Virus record (IMG/VR): IMGVR_UViG_3300023242_000352
Coordinates: 1-33,205 of that record
Source of the DNA: a virus
Length of the DNA stretch: 33,205 nt
Strand: one strand, 5' to 3'
Part shown: one piece after another, positions 2,516-20,631 of the stretch
Layout: every line of letters starts with the position of its first letter
How positions within the stretch are numbered: the stretch's first letter is position 1
The notes under the pieces: model-generated
Databases searched by the model: none
What the model was told of the DNA's origin: nothing
Seen by the model: the letters and a program-made list of their open reading frames with translations, nothing else
Program-made: the position numbers and the translations under genes

Positions 2516-3316
2516 TTAATTACACTCATATTCTAAAAAACCTTTGAGTATTGTATTTAGCTGGCGTTTCTCAAACTTATGCTCTTTCAGGTTATTGTTT
2601 ACAGCTACTTGCTCATCATTGGTTAATCGATTGTAAGCGGCTTTAATTCTAGGCGCTACAGCATCCTCGTCTTCGTCAGCATTGATCTGATTGATAAAGT
2701 ACGTTGTGGCTCGGCTTACTTTGTCTAGGTCTAATGGTTCGTTTGATATAGTCTCAATTGGCTCAACTATTACGTCATCAATAACTTCTGTTGACTTCAT
2801 TAAACCCCATTTGTAGCGAGTTGCCACACCATCGCTGGCAGCTAGAAAACTTATCTTGCCATCTTCAAATTCTGAGTACCAAACCCATTCTTTTAATTTT
2901 AATTCCCAAGTAGGCATTACTTTATTATTGTCAACCTTAAATTCTTTTGGGTTTAATTTAATTTGAATAACTGGGTATTCGTACAACTCGCGACCAATAC
3001 CCCAGTTAAAGCAAGATCGTTTAAACGAATCACTAGCCAAGCCCTTCTGAGCCTCTGCGTTGCTCTCTGTGCCTGTATCCTCTTTACCTACCCATTGGTT
3101 ACTTTCTTCGTTATAAATCGACACAGTACAGTTTTTATTGTCCCTAGTGTGCTTTCTTTCCCAATTAAGCGGCCCACAAACATCATCAAGCCGTTGCATA
3201 TCACATCTGGCGTTTTTATAAGCCAGTATAGTTGCGTAACCACCCTTGTTAATTGACTGGATGCGAAAATCAATCTGGTCAACAGTCAAAGGCTCTGCTA
3301 GTTTTAATAAGTCCAT
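2516..3316 (-). CDS. Rad52/Sak-type single-strand annealing protein
   Basis: 266 residues. The N-terminal half shows the Rad52/Rad22 phage family pattern: IDFRIQSINKGGYATILAYKNARCDMQRLDDVCGP-type opening with ARxxMxRLDxVxGPxNW (about 36-52), then TESNAEAQKGLASDSFKRSCFNWGIGRELYE (about 82-112). Family members anneal complementary ssDNA for phage recombination, usually with SSB, which is encoded here at 9374. The C-terminal third (about 175-266) is a variable linker and a helical tail. The start has a strong site (AGGAGGAAATATA-ATG) and overlaps the upstream stop (TAATG). It is the last gene of the leftward overlapping operon. Confidence 0.85.
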   Translation of the reverse strand: MDLLKLAEPLTVDQIDFRIQSINKGGYATILAYKNARCDMQRLDDVCGPLNWERKHTRDNKNCTVSIYNEESNQWVGKEDTGTESNAEAQKGLASDSFKRSCFNWGIGRELYEYPVIQIKLNPKEFKVDNNKVMPTWELKLKEWVWYSEFEDGKISFLAASDGVATRYKWGLMKSTEVIDDVIVEPIETISNEPLDLDKVSRATTYFINQINADEDEDAVAPRIKAAYNRLTNDEQVAVNNNLKEHKFEKRQLNTILKGFLEYECN

Positions 3317-6064: not shown

Positions 6065-6283
6065 ATGAAAAAACAAATTAATTACAAGCCGGGAACCGAT
6101 AAGGTTTTATCACCGCGTATTGTTAATTACTCCGTACGATGGGGTAAATTAGTATTAATAACAGCAAATATATCGACCGATACATATCATTTAAAAGCCT
6201 ATAGAAAGGTTTTGCATTCCTTATGGGAAGGAGGGTATAGCCATAAAGACGCAGCTCATTTGATTATAACGGGTGATGCATAA
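6065..6283 (+). CDS. Hypothetical basic protein (72 aa) before the initiator gene
   Basis: Start chosen at MKKQINYKPGTDKVLSPRI, with GAAGG eight bases upstream. An in-frame TTG at 5981 would add 28 residues (DFEPKDSLPPSELPLS...) but has no ribosome site and lies in the structured leader. The protein is small and basic, with mixed strands and helices. The stop overlaps the next start (TAATG). No family recognised; it may regulate or assist replication because of its position. Confidence 0.65.
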   Translation: MKKQINYKPGTDKVLSPRIVNYSVRWGKLVLITANISTDTYHLKAYRKVLHSLWEGGYSHKDAAHLIITGDA

Positions 6284-6918
6284 TGGAAATCAATAATTGG
6301 GATAAGTGGCAAACCTTTAGAAAAGACAGGGGTACGCCACCGTGGATTAAAGTCTACAGGAACTTATTATCAAATGAACAATGGGTAGATTTAACTGATT
6401 CAGAGAAAGGCCAGTTAATTTCTATTTGGATTCTTGCGGCTGATAAAAATGGACAAATATCAGACAATCCAAAAATGATTCAACGAATGGCAATGCTTGA
6501 GTCACCACCAAACATCAATAAATTCATAGAGTTAGGTTTCCTGTCAACCACCTGTCAACCACCTGTCAACCAAGCGGTAACCGATTGTCCGCAACTTGAC
6601 GCACCAGAGGAGAGTAGAGCAGAGACAGAGCAGAGTAAAATAGATAGCCGGTTTGATGATTTTTGGATAATGTACGACAAGAATGTAAACAAGCCAAAAT
6701 GCAAAGCTAAGTTTGAACGATTGAGTAAAAAATCAGTAGACACTATATTTAACACTCTCCCAAAATACATCAACTCAACGCCTGACAAACAATTTAGAAA
6801 AGCGCCATTAGTTTATTTGAATAATGATTGTTGGAATGATGAGATAGTAATACCAACGAATAAAAGTGGTTTTAACAATCAGCCATCAACATCAAGTTAC
6901 CGGGATTTTCCATTATGA
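6283..6918 (+). CDS. Phage replication initiator, lambda-O/replisome-organizer type
   Basis: 211 residues. The N-terminal domain (about 1-80) has the winged-helix opening common to phage replication organisers: WQTFRKDRGTPPWIKVYRNLL, then LTDSEKGQLISIWILAADKNGQIS. A low-complexity linker (about 85-118) contains the iteron repeats. The C-terminal domain (about 120-190) reads FDDFWIMYDKNVNKPKCKAKFERL, as in DnaT/O-like helicase-recruiting regions. By family, the N-terminus binds origin iterons and the C-terminus recruits the helicase encoded next (ATGA overlap). Confidence 0.8.
   Translation: MEINNWDKWQTFRKDRGTPPWIKVYRNLLSNEQWVDLTDSEKGQLISIWILAADKNGQISDNPKMIQRMAMLESPPNINKFIELGFLSTTCQPPVNQAVTDCPQLDAPEESRAETEQSKIDSRFDDFWIMYDKNVNKPKCKAKFERLSKKSVDTIFNTLPKYINSTPDKQFRKAPLVYLNNDCWNDEIVIPTNKSGFNNQPSTSSYRDFPL
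6540..6635 (+). repeat. Candidate replication origin: 11-bp iterons inside the O-like gene
   Basis: CCTGTCAACCA is repeated three times without a mismatch and without gaps (6540-6550, 6551-6561, 6562-6572). The 11-bp period puts each copy on the same helix face. Because 11 is not a multiple of three, the repeat is not selected as a peptide repeat. A purine-rich tract follows (about 6606-6640), with AGAGCAGAG at 6616 and 6627, again 11 bp apart, then AT-rich DNA (about 6650-6672). Iterons, then a tract easily melted, inside the initiator gene, is the lambda ori layout. Confidence 0.7.
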
Positions 6919-8213
6919 ATAAACAATGGCAAGCACCTGAAGCGGAAAAGGTATTTATTGGCTCAATTCTAACTAGGCCATCGAGATTACTTGAAGTCAC
7001 AGCTACGAAAGCTAGTTTTATGATTGAAGCACACGCGACTGTATTTGATGTGATTATGGATATGAACCAATCTAATAACCTGATTGATTTAATATCAGTA
7101 GCGGATCGCTTGACAGAGTTAAATGCTAGTTCAAAAAATAACGTTTATGCTTACCATGCTTCGTTTACTGGTGGTTGGTTACATCAGTTATCTAATTGGA
7201 TGGAGGCGGCTGTTGTTGATTCTTTTTTCTATTCATCGCAAGAAATTATAATACGCGAGTATCGCAAGCGAGAAATAACAAAGATCAGTTATAACTTGAG
7301 CGAAGATTATGATGCTGATGTCGCCATACAAGAATTAATGAATTTAGAAGTGGTTGAGAAAAAGCACACCCACACGATTACTGAGGCTTTAACAGTTGCT
7401 ATTGATAAAGTACAAGAGTTGGCACAGCATGGTGGTGTTGTTGGTTTGACAACTGGTTTAAAGGCTTTGGATGACGCTATTGGTGGATTCCAATCACCAG
7501 ATTTATATATTATTGGAGCAAGGCCAGCAATGGGTAAAACAGCAGTTGCTATGAACATGATGCTATCTAATAATTGCGCGGCTGGATTCTTTTCGACTGA
7601 GCAACCAATGGAACAAATAGGAATTAGGACATTATCAATACAAAGCGGTGTTTCTGCTAATCGAGTAAGAAAGGCTGACTTCCAAAATGGCGATATAGAA
7701 AGGCTTATATCTACACTAGGACAACTTAAAGGTCGCAATGTATTAATCCATGACAAGGCTAATATAACGATTGGTGAGCTAATGCGTGAAGCTAGGCAAA
7801 TGAAGTTTACTCACGATATACAAGCGGTCTATGTTGATTACATTCAGCGAATCAAAAGCCCGAAGGCAGAAAACAGACGGTTAGAAGTTGCTGACGTTGT
7901 GACGGGCCTTAAAACACTTGCCAGAGAACTAAATATTCCAGTTATAGCATTAGCACAGGTATCGCGAGAAGTTACTAAGCGGCCTGACAAGCGTCCTCAC
8001 ATGGGCGATCTTTTAGAGTCTGGTGTCATAGAGCAAGAAGCTGACGTTGTGATGATGCTTTACCGTGATGAGGTCTACAACGAAGACACAAATGAAAAAG
8101 GTATTATTGAAATATTAATCGATAAGAACCGACACGGGCCAACTGGCAAGCTTAAATTTGCATGGATTGGCGATCAAATGAAAATAGCGGATCTGCAAGG
8201 GGGGTCGTTTTAA
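6915..8213 (+). CDS. Replicative DNA helicase, DnaB family
   Basis: 432 residues, near the usual DnaB length. The N-terminal helical domain (about 7-120) is followed by a RecA-type ATPase: Walker A GARPAMGKTA (201-210), STEQ (227-230), Walker B VYVDYIQ (305-311), ALAQVSR (345-351) and the SGVIEQEADVVMMLYRDE signature (369-386). It unwinds the phage fork as a hexamer and is probably loaded by the preceding initiator (ATGA overlap). No intein or disruption is seen. Confidence 0.95.
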   Translation: MNKQWQAPEAEKVFIGSILTRPSRLLEVTATKASFMIEAHATVFDVIMDMNQSNNLIDLISVADRLTELNASSKNNVYAYHASFTGGWLHQLSNWMEAAVVDSFFYSSQEIIIREYRKREITKISYNLSEDYDADVAIQELMNLEVVEKKHTHTITEALTVAIDKVQELAQHGGVVGLTTGLKALDDAIGGFQSPDLYIIGARPAMGKTAVAMNMMLSNNCAAGFFSTEQPMEQIGIRTLSIQSGVSANRVRKADFQNGDIERLISTLGQLKGRNVLIHDKANITIGELMREARQMKFTHDIQAVYVDYIQRIKSPKAENRRLEVADVVTGLKTLARELNIPVIALAQVSREVTKRPDKRPHMGDLLESGVIEQEADVVMMLYRDEVYNEDTNEKGIIEILIDKNRHGPTGKLKFAWIGDQMKIADLQGGSF

Positions 8214-9373: not shown

Positions 9374-9817
9374 ATGGCTAGAAACTTAAATTCATGCTCG
9401 TTTATTGGACGGCTTGGTAAAGACCCAGAAATAAAAAACATGCCTAACGGTAATGCGGTGGCTAACTTTGGTATTGCTGTAGGTGATGATTACAAGGATA
9501 AGCAAGGCCAGAAGGTTGAGCAAACCAATTGGGTCAATGTTGTGATCTTTGGGAAACTGGCTGAAATTTGTGGTCAGTATCTAACAAAAGGATCACAGGT
9601 TTACATTAACGGAAAGTTTGTAACTAGAAAATGGCAAGACAAAGAAGGTAACGATAAATACAGCACTGAGATAGTAGCCAATGAAATGGAAATGTTAGGC
9701 GGTAAGCAGGATGATGGGGCTAAAGCTGCTCAACCAGATAAATACCCAAGTCATCAACCACAGCCAGCTAATAACCAGCCTGTAGATGATGTGTTTGATC
9801 AAGAAATCCCTTTTTAG
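9374..9817 (+). CDS. ssb: Single-stranded DNA-binding protein
   Basis: 147 residues. OB-fold core (about 1-110): NSCSFIGRLGKDPEIKNMPNG, ANFGIAV, TNWVNVVIFGKLAEICGQYL and KGSQVYINGKFVTRKWQDKEG are SSB hallmarks. A Gln/Pro/Asn linker follows, then an acidic tip DDVFDQEIPF that in SSBs docks DNA-processing partners. It protects ssDNA at the fork and would pair with the Rad52-like annealase. Confidence 0.95.
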   Translation: MARNLNSCSFIGRLGKDPEIKNMPNGNAVANFGIAVGDDYKDKQGQKVEQTNWVNVVIFGKLAEICGQYLTKGSQVYINGKFVTRKWQDKEGNDKYSTEIVANEMEMLGGKQDDGAKAAQPDKYPSHQPQPANNQPVDDVFDQEIPF

Positions 9818-11673: not shown

Positions 11674-11896
11674 AAGATGGCTCGACACCCAGACTGGTGC
11701 TAAAGAAGCGCCGAAAAAAGTCTATAGCGAAGACGACATGAAGACCGCATGGTTCAACGGTTACTCAACGCGCAATGTTGAAATGCGAGAATTGATTGAT
11801 GTAGAAGCCGAGAAACATAATTCATTTTTATCAGAGCTTGCAGTCGCTAATACTATAAATCGAATGGCTGCAGCTAGTGGAGATCAAGAATGCTAA
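11651..11896 (+). CDS. Hypothetical protein (81 aa)
   Basis: Start taken at MNNHTKFKRWLDTQTG; an in-frame ATG at 11639 adds four residues, and neither has a strong site. The protein is soluble and helical, with EDDMKTAWFNGYSTRN and EMRELIDVEAEKHN. It overlaps the broken ORF upstream and the phosphoesterase gene downstream. No family recognised. Confidence 0.65.
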   Translation: MNNHTKFKRWLDTQTGAKEAPKKVYSEDDMKTAWFNGYSTRNVEMRELIDVEAEKHNSFLSELAVANTINRMAAASGDQEC

Positions 11897-12999
11897 CACC
11901 TAAACAACAAGAAGTATTTGACCTAAAGCAACAAGGAATGAGTGTTGCTGAAATAGCGGTTAAGCTAAACATTAACCCGTCATCAGTCACACGAAGGTGG
12001 CAGGGCGCTATAAACCGATCAGTTACACAAAAAATGTCGCCAGGGTTTGAAATAGACCGCAAGACCGAGGGCCGATGGTATGAAGACCCAGAAACAGGAG
12101 AACGTCGAGTCGAGTATTTAAAGTCTAAGCGCACTAAGGAAACAACTACTGGTATGGCTGATGCTTTCAGGGCTTCTATATCCGACATTAAGCCATTAAA
12201 GAATATTAAAATACCAAAAACCAGCATGAAAGATAGCATGGTTGTCTACCCAATGGGCGACCCACACATAGGCCTATACGCATACCATAAAGAAGTTGGT
12301 GAAGATTTCGACTGTGATATAGCAGAGCGTGATTTATTAGCAGCTGTTGATTATTTATTCAGTGTTGCGCCTCCTACAGACGAGGCTTTAGTCGTAAACT
12401 TAGGTGATTTTTTCCACAGTGATAGTGGGCGCAACGCAACAACCAAAGGAACCCCTGTAGACGTCGACACTCGTTGGAGCAGAGTTTTATTAATAGGAAT
12501 AAAGGTTCAGATTAGAATGATAGAACTGGCATTGGGCAACCACAAGCGAGTAACTGCAATTATAGCACCTGGAAACCATGACGCAGAATCAAGTATATTA
12601 TTAACTATAGCCTTGCAGCTTTATTTTGAAAACAATAAACGAGTTACGATTCAAGAACCAAATATGTTTCATTTCTACGAGTTCGGCGCTAACTTGATAG
12701 GTGTTTGTCATGGTCACACTGTCAAAAAAGAAAACTTACCACAGTTAATGGCTGAAGATATGCCAGAAGCATGGGGAAGGACCAAACATAGATATTGGTA
12801 CACTGGACACATTCATCACAGAACACTACTAGAGGTTGGCTCGACTATCGTAGAATCATTCCGAACGCTGGCAGGCAAAGACGCATGGCATCACGGTCAA
12901 GGCTACCGAGCAGGCCGAGATATGAACGCTATTGTATTACATAAGAAGTACGGTGAGACAGACCGACATAGGTGTGACATACTGAGAGCAAGGGCCTAA
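11890..12999 (+). CDS. HTH-metallophosphoesterase fusion protein
   Basis: 369 residues. The N-terminus (about 1-45) is a helix-turn-helix of the LuxR/sigma-like kind: LTPKQQEVFDLKQQGMSVAE then IAVKLNINPSSVTRRWQGA. The rest is a calcineurin-like phosphoesterase with all metal motifs: GDPH (123-126), GDFFH (172-176), GNHD (228-231), CHGHT (273-277) and GHIHH (306-310). By family it is a two-metal hydrolase, probably on nucleic acid or nucleotides. The HTH suggests DNA recruitment. Its substrate is unknown. It sits just before the Q-like gene. Confidence 0.85.
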   Translation: MLTPKQQEVFDLKQQGMSVAEIAVKLNINPSSVTRRWQGAINRSVTQKMSPGFEIDRKTEGRWYEDPETGERRVEYLKSKRTKETTTGMADAFRASISDIKPLKNIKIPKTSMKDSMVVYPMGDPHIGLYAYHKEVGEDFDCDIAERDLLAAVDYLFSVAPPTDEALVVNLGDFFHSDSGRNATTKGTPVDVDTRWSRVLLIGIKVQIRMIELALGNHKRVTAIIAPGNHDAESSILLTIALQLYFENNKRVTIQEPNMFHFYEFGANLIGVCHGHTVKKENLPQLMAEDMPEAWGRTKHRYWYTGHIHHRTLLEVGSTIVESFRTLAGKDAWHHGQGYRAGRDMNAIVLHKKYGETDRHRCDILRARA

Positions 13000-19245: not shown

Positions 19246-19755
19246 ATGTTAGAAGTAGAGTATAAGCAAACATCGAATGTTTTTGGCTATGTAAATAATA
19301 GCCGAACGCATTCTAGTGAGCAGATATCACAGATAGCGGCAAGTATAAAAGAGTTTGGGTTTACTAACCCGCTATTGATTGATGAAAGCGGTGGAATTAT
19401 TGCAGGGCATGGGCGATTGTCAGCAGCTAAAAAGCTGAATATGGACGAAGTGCCTACAATCACACTGACAGGATTAAACGATACACAGCGCAAGGCTTAT
19501 GTTATAGCAGATAACAAGTTGGCATTGAATGCTGGATGGGATGACGAACTATTGGCGTTAGAACTTAAGGGATTGCAAGAGCAAGACTTTGATTTGTCGC
19601 TTATTGGCTTTGATGTTGAAGAATTGGAATCATTATTAGGTGAAATCTCTTTCGATCCGGGGAGTGAAGAAGACCAAGGACAACTTGACGAATTAGACCC
19701 GAAATATATTGATTGCCCACATTGCGGCAAAGAATTTGACATGAGGCTAAAATAA
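19246..19755 (+). CDS. ParB-like nuclease-domain protein with C-terminal zinc ribbon
   Basis: 169 residues. ParB/Srx-type domain: NPLLIDESGGIIAGHGRLSA (about 41-60), then AKKLNMDEVPTI and QRKAYVIADNKLALNAGWD (about 81-99). The GHGR core is the conserved ParB-N box. A short acidic linker leads to CPHCGKEFDMR (about 158-168), a zinc ribbon or half-ribbon. In phages this domain often sits with DNA methylases or other DNA-modifying enzymes; here a Mom-like gene follows. Confidence 0.85.
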   Translation: MLEVEYKQTSNVFGYVNNSRTHSSEQISQIAASIKEFGFTNPLLIDESGGIIAGHGRLSAAKKLNMDEVPTITLTGLNDTQRKAYVIADNKLALNAGWDDELLALELKGLQEQDFDLSLIGFDVEELESLLGEISFDPGSEEDQGQLDELDPKYIDCPHCGKEFDMRLK

Positions 19756-19955
19756 TGCAAACAATAGAGTCAAAGAATAGCAACATATTAAATAGATTTG
19801 AAAATAATGAGCCTACTGGTAAAATGACATCATTTAGAATATCACTTGATGGTAAAAACATGAGCTATCTTTCAAGAATATTCACAACCCAGAATCAAGT
19901 CGTTAGAGAAATGACACAAAGATTCCCAGGCAGAGAGTTAAAGTTTATTGAATAA
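19755..19955 (+). CDS. Hypothetical protein between ParB-like and Mom-like genes (66 aa)
   Basis: The ATG overlaps the upstream TAA (TAATG). It starts MQTIESKNSNILNRFENNEP and ends RFPGRELKFIE. Basic and mixed in structure. No family recognised. It overlaps the next gene by eight bases, so it is probably co-translated with the Mom-like protein. Confidence 0.6.
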   Translation: MQTIESKNSNILNRFENNEPTGKMTSFRISLDGKNMSYLSRIFTTQNQVVREMTQRFPGRELKFIE

Positions 19956-20631
19956 GTCAGACTTAAGAATTGATTGGGCTACGCATGAGGCGGCAAAATA
20001 TGCCGTTATGAACTGGCATTATTCTAAATGTATGCCTGTTGGTAAGTTAGTTAAGATAGGCGTCTGGGAATTTAATAAATTTATTGGAGTTATAATTTTT
20101 GGGCGAGGCGCTAACCCTGGGCTATACAGCCCTTATGGTTTAACGCAGACAGAAGGGTGCGAGTTAGTAAGAATAGCTTTAAATTCCCATGTTAGCTCTG
20201 TTAGTCGAATAATGAGTATAGCTTTTAAGTTTTTAGTTGAGTCTAATAGTTCATTACGGCTGATTGTTAGTTTTGCTGATCAGTCGCAAGGGCATCATGG
20301 CGGCATATACCAAGCAAGTAACTGGATTTATAATGGTCAAAGTCAATCAGCAGAGGAATATCTATATAATGGAAAGCGATGGCATGGACGGGCGTTTAGG
20401 AAGTCGCATGGTAGCCATTTAAAGTATATTGACAAAGGACTAGAAATTGTTCAAGGTTCAAGAAAGCATAGATATTTAATGTCATTAGATTCTGACATGA
20501 GAAATCAAATTGAACCATTATCAAAACCATACCCAAAGCGTGTGACAAGGGCTAACTCTGGCGACCAGCTAGAAAGCGGCGGTTCAATACCGACCCACAC
20601 GCTCCATATTGAGGGTTCAGCCAATGGCTAG
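19948..20631 (+). CDS. Mom-like DNA-modification protein
   Basis: 227 residues. It matches phage Mu Mom-type proteins (GNAT-like fold): LRIDWATHEAAKYAVMNWHY, GKLVKIGVWEFNKFIGVIIF, GCELVRIALNSHVSSVSRIM, SLRLIVSFADQSQGHHGGIY and a GKRWHGRAFRKSHG segment. In Mu, Mom converts adenines to an acetamido form that blocks restriction. Start TTG at 19948 fits the conserved N-terminus; the next ATG would cut it off. The C-terminal tail (about 190-227) is variable. The role in this phage, restriction evasion, is inferred. Confidence 0.75.
   Translation: MNKSDLRIDWATHEAAKYAVMNWHYSKCMPVGKLVKIGVWEFNKFIGVIIFGRGANPGLYSPYGLTQTEGCELVRIALNSHVSSVSRIMSIAFKFLVESNSSLRLIVSFADQSQGHHGGIYQASNWIYNGQSQSAEEYLYNGKRWHGRAFRKSHGSHLKYIDKGLEIVQGSRKHRYLMSLDSDMRNQIEPLSKPYPKRVTRANSGDQLESGGSIPTHTLHIEGSANG

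Follow-up and report, generated by a model that had tools for sequence, protein, structure and literature searches.

Where replication starts is unknown for most environmental phages, and the locus described here raises the question whether an origin can be located within an initiator gene by the repeats that it holds. The window, that is, the whole stretch of viral DNA of 33,205 nucleotides that was analysed, carries on its plus strand (6283–6918) a gene for an O-like replication initiation protein of 211 amino acids. Judged from the sequence, 6541–6643 is very likely a theta-type replication origin inside the phage's own initiator gene, with a repeat lattice presumably read by the N-terminal domain (NTD) of the product and a C-terminal domain (CTD) that would recruit DnaB.

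The product of the ORF matches phrog_270, replication initiation protein, over residues 23–202 (E 8.9e-16). A gene for a DnaB-type replicative helicase (6915–8213, plus strand; Pfam DnaB_C, E 1.4e-79; phrog_19) follows directly downstream, its start overlapping the initiator stop. The O-like initiator proposed in the initial annotation is upheld by the match and the adjoining helicase together. Also near the initiator are an SSB gene (9374–9817), an Erf/Rad52-type annealing protein gene on the minus strand (2516–3316) and an exonuclease-like gene (11890–12999).

Elsewhere in the window, the region of 10–680 and 754–1131 carries 51-bp/153-bp tandem repeats ahead of a Peptidase_S74 chaperone domain (E 3.6e-9). 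This region is probably the terminal part of a tail-fibre gene, truncated where the contig stops. A Mom family protein, a DNA modification protein (Pfam PF25680, E 2e-46), is encoded at 19948–20631, and a ParB-like ORF recognised by eye lies shortly before it at 19246–19755.

The initiator appears to be built of two domains. The NTD (6283–6546, plus strand) is the presumed iteron reader and is predicted to be winged-helix-like by its AF2 model (pLDDT 86). The structural matches of the model are weak, Z ≤ 4.0 being middling by the tool's own grading; the best are the DnaD NTD (2v79, Z 4.0), plasmid initiator NTDs (4pql and 4pt7, Z 3.8 and 3.6) and a Rep–DNA complex (5kbj, Z 3.3). The NTD profile gave no credible match among PDB sequences, Foldseek of the model against PDB gave nothing at E ≤ 0.001, and RepA_N (PF06970) was absent from the window protein in a Pfam search at E 0.1. 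The predicted fold is thus a lead, short of proof. The CTD (6649–6918, plus strand) is presumed to recruit the helicase and is exchangeable, as the same CTD occurs with other NTDs and the same NTD type with other CTDs.

Three perfect tandem iterons of 11 bp, CCTGTCAACCA, occupy 6540–6572 on the plus strand without a gap (6540–6550, 6551–6561 and 6562–6572), exactly as first annotated. They form the sole run of at least 16 same-lag matches at any lag of 7–40 in the 33-kb window. Their run of 22 matches at lag 11 is not reached in length by any of 5,000 synonymous-codon shuffles of the ORF, in which the protein and the codon set are held constant (largest, 16). In first-order Markov versions of the whole window (n=30), the longest run is 13 versus the real 22.

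The iterons belong to a larger, phase-locked 11-bp lattice of six units at 6541–6606. By alignment with relatives (L018–L022 and L031), the first five units on the plus strand are CTGTCAACCAC, CTGTCAACCAC, CTGTCAACCAA, GCGGTAACCGA and TTGTCCGCAAC (6541–6595), the fourth and fifth being degenerate. The sixth is a terminal box, TTGACGCACCA (6596–6606, plus strand), of the family TGAYGCACCAG. The lattice sits between the NTD and CTD coding parts, and the earlier placement of the repeats in the linker-coding part of the gene therefore stands. A further array or operator elsewhere in the window was looked for and rejected: the other iteron matches, each with 2 mismatches, are about as many as chance would give.

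Next to the box is a purine-rich simple-repeat tract (GAGGAGAGTAGAGCAGAGACAGAGCAGAG..., 6607–6643, plus strand), a possible strand-opening or helicase landing site, which ties for the most purine-rich 36-nt stretch in the window. The span of 6540–6672 initially proposed covers both the lattice and the tract, but with some excess at the right. The tract had been described with an 11-bp-spaced pair, and AGAGCAGAG does occur at 6616 and 6627, 11 bp apart. The pair, however, is part of the tract. As a second iteron set it was rejected, because relatives carry 5- or 6-nt periodic purine-rich tracts at that place, and for this reason its 11-bp spacing is probably incidental.

The AT-rich DNA reported after the tract is present but modest. 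The segment 6636–6700 is 69% AT, the purine tract intervening between it and the repeats, and 60-bp windows starting at 6636–6730 rank weakly, at about the 8th–22nd percentile for instability within the window. DnaA boxes occur as one-mismatch matches only, such as TTATCCAAA at 6662–6670 on the minus strand, and were not counted. GC skew, which had been suggested as a check, changes at about 4–4.5 kb, where gene orientation switches. Because the change follows gene orientation, it gives no independent support for an origin.

The initial annotation also called for comparing the iterons among relatives. Protein-selected loci split into group A, of the window type (WQTFRKDRGTPPWIK), and group B (FQHFKDRRPPWIKLYRD); one contig scan yielded a single locus, L118. 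Arrays of 11-bp units, read at the DNA level, follow the NTD in the loci of both groups with differing site sequences. The group A self-match is 0.508 at lag 11 and 0.441 at lag 22 (17 dereplicated arrays), every other lag giving 0.21–0.29 and the NTDs of the same genes, taken as control, 0.268 at lag 11. For group B it is 0.616 and 0.588, respectively, versus a control of 0.256 (31 arrays), the remaining lags again being close to background. The best lag is 11 or 22 in 16/17 of the group A and 30/31 of the group B arrays.

The units are followed, on the same lattice, by a terminal unit, TGAYGCACCAG or one of its variants, and next by the purine-rich tract. Counted from the tract modulo 11, 91 of the 97 GATATCA-like sites in group B share a single phase class. 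One locus of this group (L097) has an irregular array after 1773, where GATATCA-like sites leave the 11-bp phase. The box is in phase in the loci of groups A and B and of a further one, group D, introduced below.

The sites are TGnCAACCA in A1, the window's subclass, TGRCGYCAA-like in A2, TGATATCA in B and ACGTCAC in D. The site sequence thus varies with the NTD, whereas the spacing, the box and the tract are constant. The comparison bears out the expectation from the window, the 11-bp spacing and the terminal box being kept as the iteron sequence changes. The units of A2, B and D show more dyad symmetry than a column-permuted control, whereas those of A1 do not, so dyad symmetry is not used as a general rule.

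A DNA-only scan of viral contigs with an iteron-free query, TGAYGCACCAGAGACAGAG, found 86 stretches. Besides groups A and B, this box scan retrieved an unrelated NTD (DGGRYELDxAEVAYFLR...), that of group D, with ACGTCAC iterons of 11 bp in phase; a search for this NTD among isolated phages gave no match. A strong lag-11 run is present in 84% of the box-centred segments; among 1,865 background windows drawn from the same set of contigs the figure is 1.3%. The 84% is descriptive only because the box segments overlap and are non-dereplicated. One match of the box (L185) falls within a protein that seems to be unrelated; the box by itself is therefore no proof.

In another locus, L027, the NTD has no recognisable anchor next to it; the 11-bp array follows an inserted domain and, as judged by eye, keeps its phase with the box. 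The inserted domain, between NTD and lattice in the initiator-like gene of L027 (1501–2472), has Pfam matches to T5orf172 (GIY-YIG-type) and MUG113. A T5orf172 domain occurs also in another initiator-like protein with a DUF6291 N-terminus (L207, 829–1728). Such initiators recall the origin-directed nuclease Odn of ICP1 (PMC8263062), and their domains suggest that initiator genes or origins are targets of homing. A Manatee Spring phage (L010) has a homing-type HNH_3 endonuclease gene (2558–2998) directly upstream of its initiator gene.

Among isolated phages, the scan found an 11-bp array in the initiator genes of Xanthomonas PBR31, Limnohabitans DC33, Iodobacter PhiPLPE, Vibrio 1.116.O and Gordonia Gsput1, the array of the last being followed by a (GGGAA)n tract; in lambda the scan gives 20/23/24 instead. 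The PBR31 array is made of GATATCA sites, that of PhiPLPE of GCTAGC sites. By eye, Cylindrospermopsis Cr-LKS3 and Vibrio phiV208 have GCTAGC-type sites 11 bp apart before the tract. These two are not counted since the scan's lag-11 signal lies elsewhere in both genes.

The array and tract could be low-complexity coding that arose by slippage and is kept only as a flexible, acidic linker. In favour of this, the linker stretch encodes repetitive, hydrophilic peptides (ETETET, EAEAEA), and slippage could lengthen the tract. Yet 11 is not a codon multiple, and the reading frame is not kept. The box is in frame 0, 1 or 2 in 12, 2 and 1 group A loci, respectively, and the tract is translated as QRQRQR in L128. 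In L031 and L032 (around 1761–1800), the NTD ORF ends at the array, and the array, box and tract persist beyond it; a second ORF of these split initiators can start within the iterons and holds the box and tract.

The codon choice in the tract is extreme as well. Glu is encoded by GAG at 99% in group B tracts versus 30% elsewhere in the same ORFs, and Thr by ACA at 93% versus 33%; in group A tracts ACA makes up 96% of Thr codons versus 31% elsewhere. The other frames of box and tract, the split ORF and the strong codon bias indicate that selection acts on the DNA. The same had been argued from the spacing in the window, and it holds among relatives, where spacing and box are kept while frame, iteron sequence and CTD change. 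Slippage could add to the codon bias of the tract but cannot account for iterons that differ in sequence, not being mutual copies across loci, and yet hold phase. We regard the linker explanation as most improbable.

The tract end also marks a boundary of module exchange. The window and L003 are 70–91% identical in nucleotides through NTD, array and tract, and the identity falls from 0.79 to 0.36 at 6643/6644, the tract end. Their CTDs match different PHROGs, phrog_270 in the window and phrog_678 in L003, and other members have further replication CTDs (phrog_2514/391, 10469/345 and 16167). Altogether the CTD matches are to several distinct replication-initiation, O-like and DnaD-like loader PHROGs. 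L003 has, in addition, an 18-bp tandem repeat array of the TGGCAATGCTCGGGTGTC type at 7466–7748, away from its initiator.

The end of homology and the exchange of CTDs at the tract end are also what one would see if repeats and tract were a recombination hinge for swapping initiator CTDs, with no role in replication. A hinge needs shared sequence, however, and the iterons differ between classes with the spacing kept and phase-locked; the 11-bp phase would have no role in it. A hinge alone is therefore very unlikely to be the explanation, while the tract may serve both as hinge and in the origin.

The CTD of the window is found behind many other NTDs, often after a 5- or 6-nt repeat tract. Of 39 CTD-selected loci, 7 exceed all shuffles at lag 11 and 7 at lag 22. 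Other lags exceed the shuffles too, chiefly multiples of 5 and 6 from the tracts, so the generality of the 11-bp spacing beyond groups A, B and D is only suggestive. The lag scan found no 11-bp array in some initiator genes with the window's CTD. In the CTD-selected L207–L283, many of them AT-rich, the linker has 6- or 5-nt tracts such as GATGTA, GACAAT, GAAAAT and GAACAA, and in Gordonia phage Daredevil (L296) the repeat is (CCCGA)n. At the linker position, repeats of short period seem more general than the 11-bp array.

Within group A, NTD and iteron sequence co-vary (Mantel r 0.36, 3/5000), as physical linkage alone could bring about. Binding of the gene's own product would yield the same co-variation if the array were an operator through which the initiator regulates its own gene, replication beginning elsewhere. 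The site is, however, about 260 bp inside the gene and away from its start. Moreover, box and tract persist where NTDs and CTDs differ, the whole being tied to replication proteins, and the same placement is that of the origin in lambda, SPP1 and pSK41 (PMC7466680, PMC6316719, PMC5703833). An operator is thus improbable.

The analysis shows a lattice that is phase-locked to box and tract and recurs with other site sequences beside other NTDs, together with constraint on DNA and module exchange. In the preferred reading, an origin, NTD binding, cooperative assembly, strand opening at the tract and helicase loading are inferred. The winged-helix-like NTD of the 6283–6918 product would read the 11-bp units with one molecule or dimer per turn. 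Its presence on the lattice is expected by analogy, because in-gene repeats are established initiator sites for lambda O, SPP1 G38P and pSK41 Rep (PMC7466680, PMC6316719, PMC5703833).

An 11-bp unit spans roughly one turn of the helix, so that neighbouring molecules would lie side by side on one DNA face and build a cooperative array ending at the box. The array would then open or hand over the adjoining purine-rich tract, whose strands would form little secondary structure, and the CTD would recruit DnaB, the helicase that the following gene encodes. The fixed phase between the units, box included, and the tract suggests an assembly that has to reach the tract at one set rotational position. 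This is expected if strand opening or helicase hand-over begins at the tract.

More tentatively, and with doubts outweighing belief, the locus may represent a widespread and unnamed origin class. Its members would have NTD-specific 11-bp helical-turn lattices, phase-locked to a box and a strand-asymmetric 5/6-nt purine repeat acting as a phage counterpart of the DnaA-trio, where the array moves from duplex onto single-stranded DNA and loads the helicase. The class would span several initiator domain families that are unrelated to one another and several hosts, and its carriers would range from phages of proteobacteria to those of actinobacteria.

In-gene origins (lambda, SPP1 and pSK41) and the exchange of NTD and origin as a block (pSK41/pPR9) are already known. 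A search of non-subscription literature gave no description of the 11-bp in-gene lattice, the TGAYGCACCAG box or the 5/6-nt tract. A rule of lattice, box and tract would locate many origins in uncultured phages and supply natural initiator/site pairs for studying how initiators choose sites. With different NTDs and CTDs around one box and tract, DNA opening and helicase landing also become directly testable.

Among known systems, the lambda and lambdoid (Stx phage) ori in gene O is like the candidate of the window in having iterons and then an opening region, putative in the window, in the linker-coding middle (PMC7466680). The next gene is helicase-loading P in lambda and DnaB itself in the window. 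By its annotation, lambda has 18-bp iterons whose starts are separated by 20, 24 and 23 bp, whereas the window has contiguous 11-bp units in strict phase and falls outside the strict lambdoid pattern of 18-bp iterons at 20–24 bp spacing. Lambda has an AT-rich region; the window instead carries the purine-rich tract of 5/6-nt repeats and ends its lattice in a conserved box. Hence the initially noted resemblance to lambda holds for the linker-coding placement but not for the iteron geometry.

SPP1 oriL in gene 38 is bound at direct repeats by G38P, the product of that same gene, and has an adjoining unwinding element (PMC6316719). SPP1 and the window phage both encode a DnaB-type helicase, gp40 in SPP1 (PMC6316719). 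SPP1, unlike the window, has a separate loader, gp39, and a second origin, oriR; the likeness is drawn from description, not from sequence.

In the RepA_N theta plasmid pSK41, Rep boxes midway along rep are the binding sites of a winged-helix NTD, and the linker-encoding DNA is the origin (PMC5703833). NTD and ori are exchanged as a block in RepA_N plasmids, and the chimeric pPR9 initiator has a phage-like NTD (PMC5703833). The window NTD has its weak structural likeness to plasmid initiators; pSK41, however, has four Rep boxes and a CTD that binds DnaG primase, whereas the window protein is without a RepA_N match. In the PLE satellites, the RepA_N domain and the origin co-vary with the CTD kept (PMC8263062), but the origin is intergenic with three semi-palindromic iterons of about 30 bp, not an in-gene 11-bp array. 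Finally, the DnaA-trio beside the DnaA boxes is a loose parallel to the tract beside the lattice (PMC10797057).
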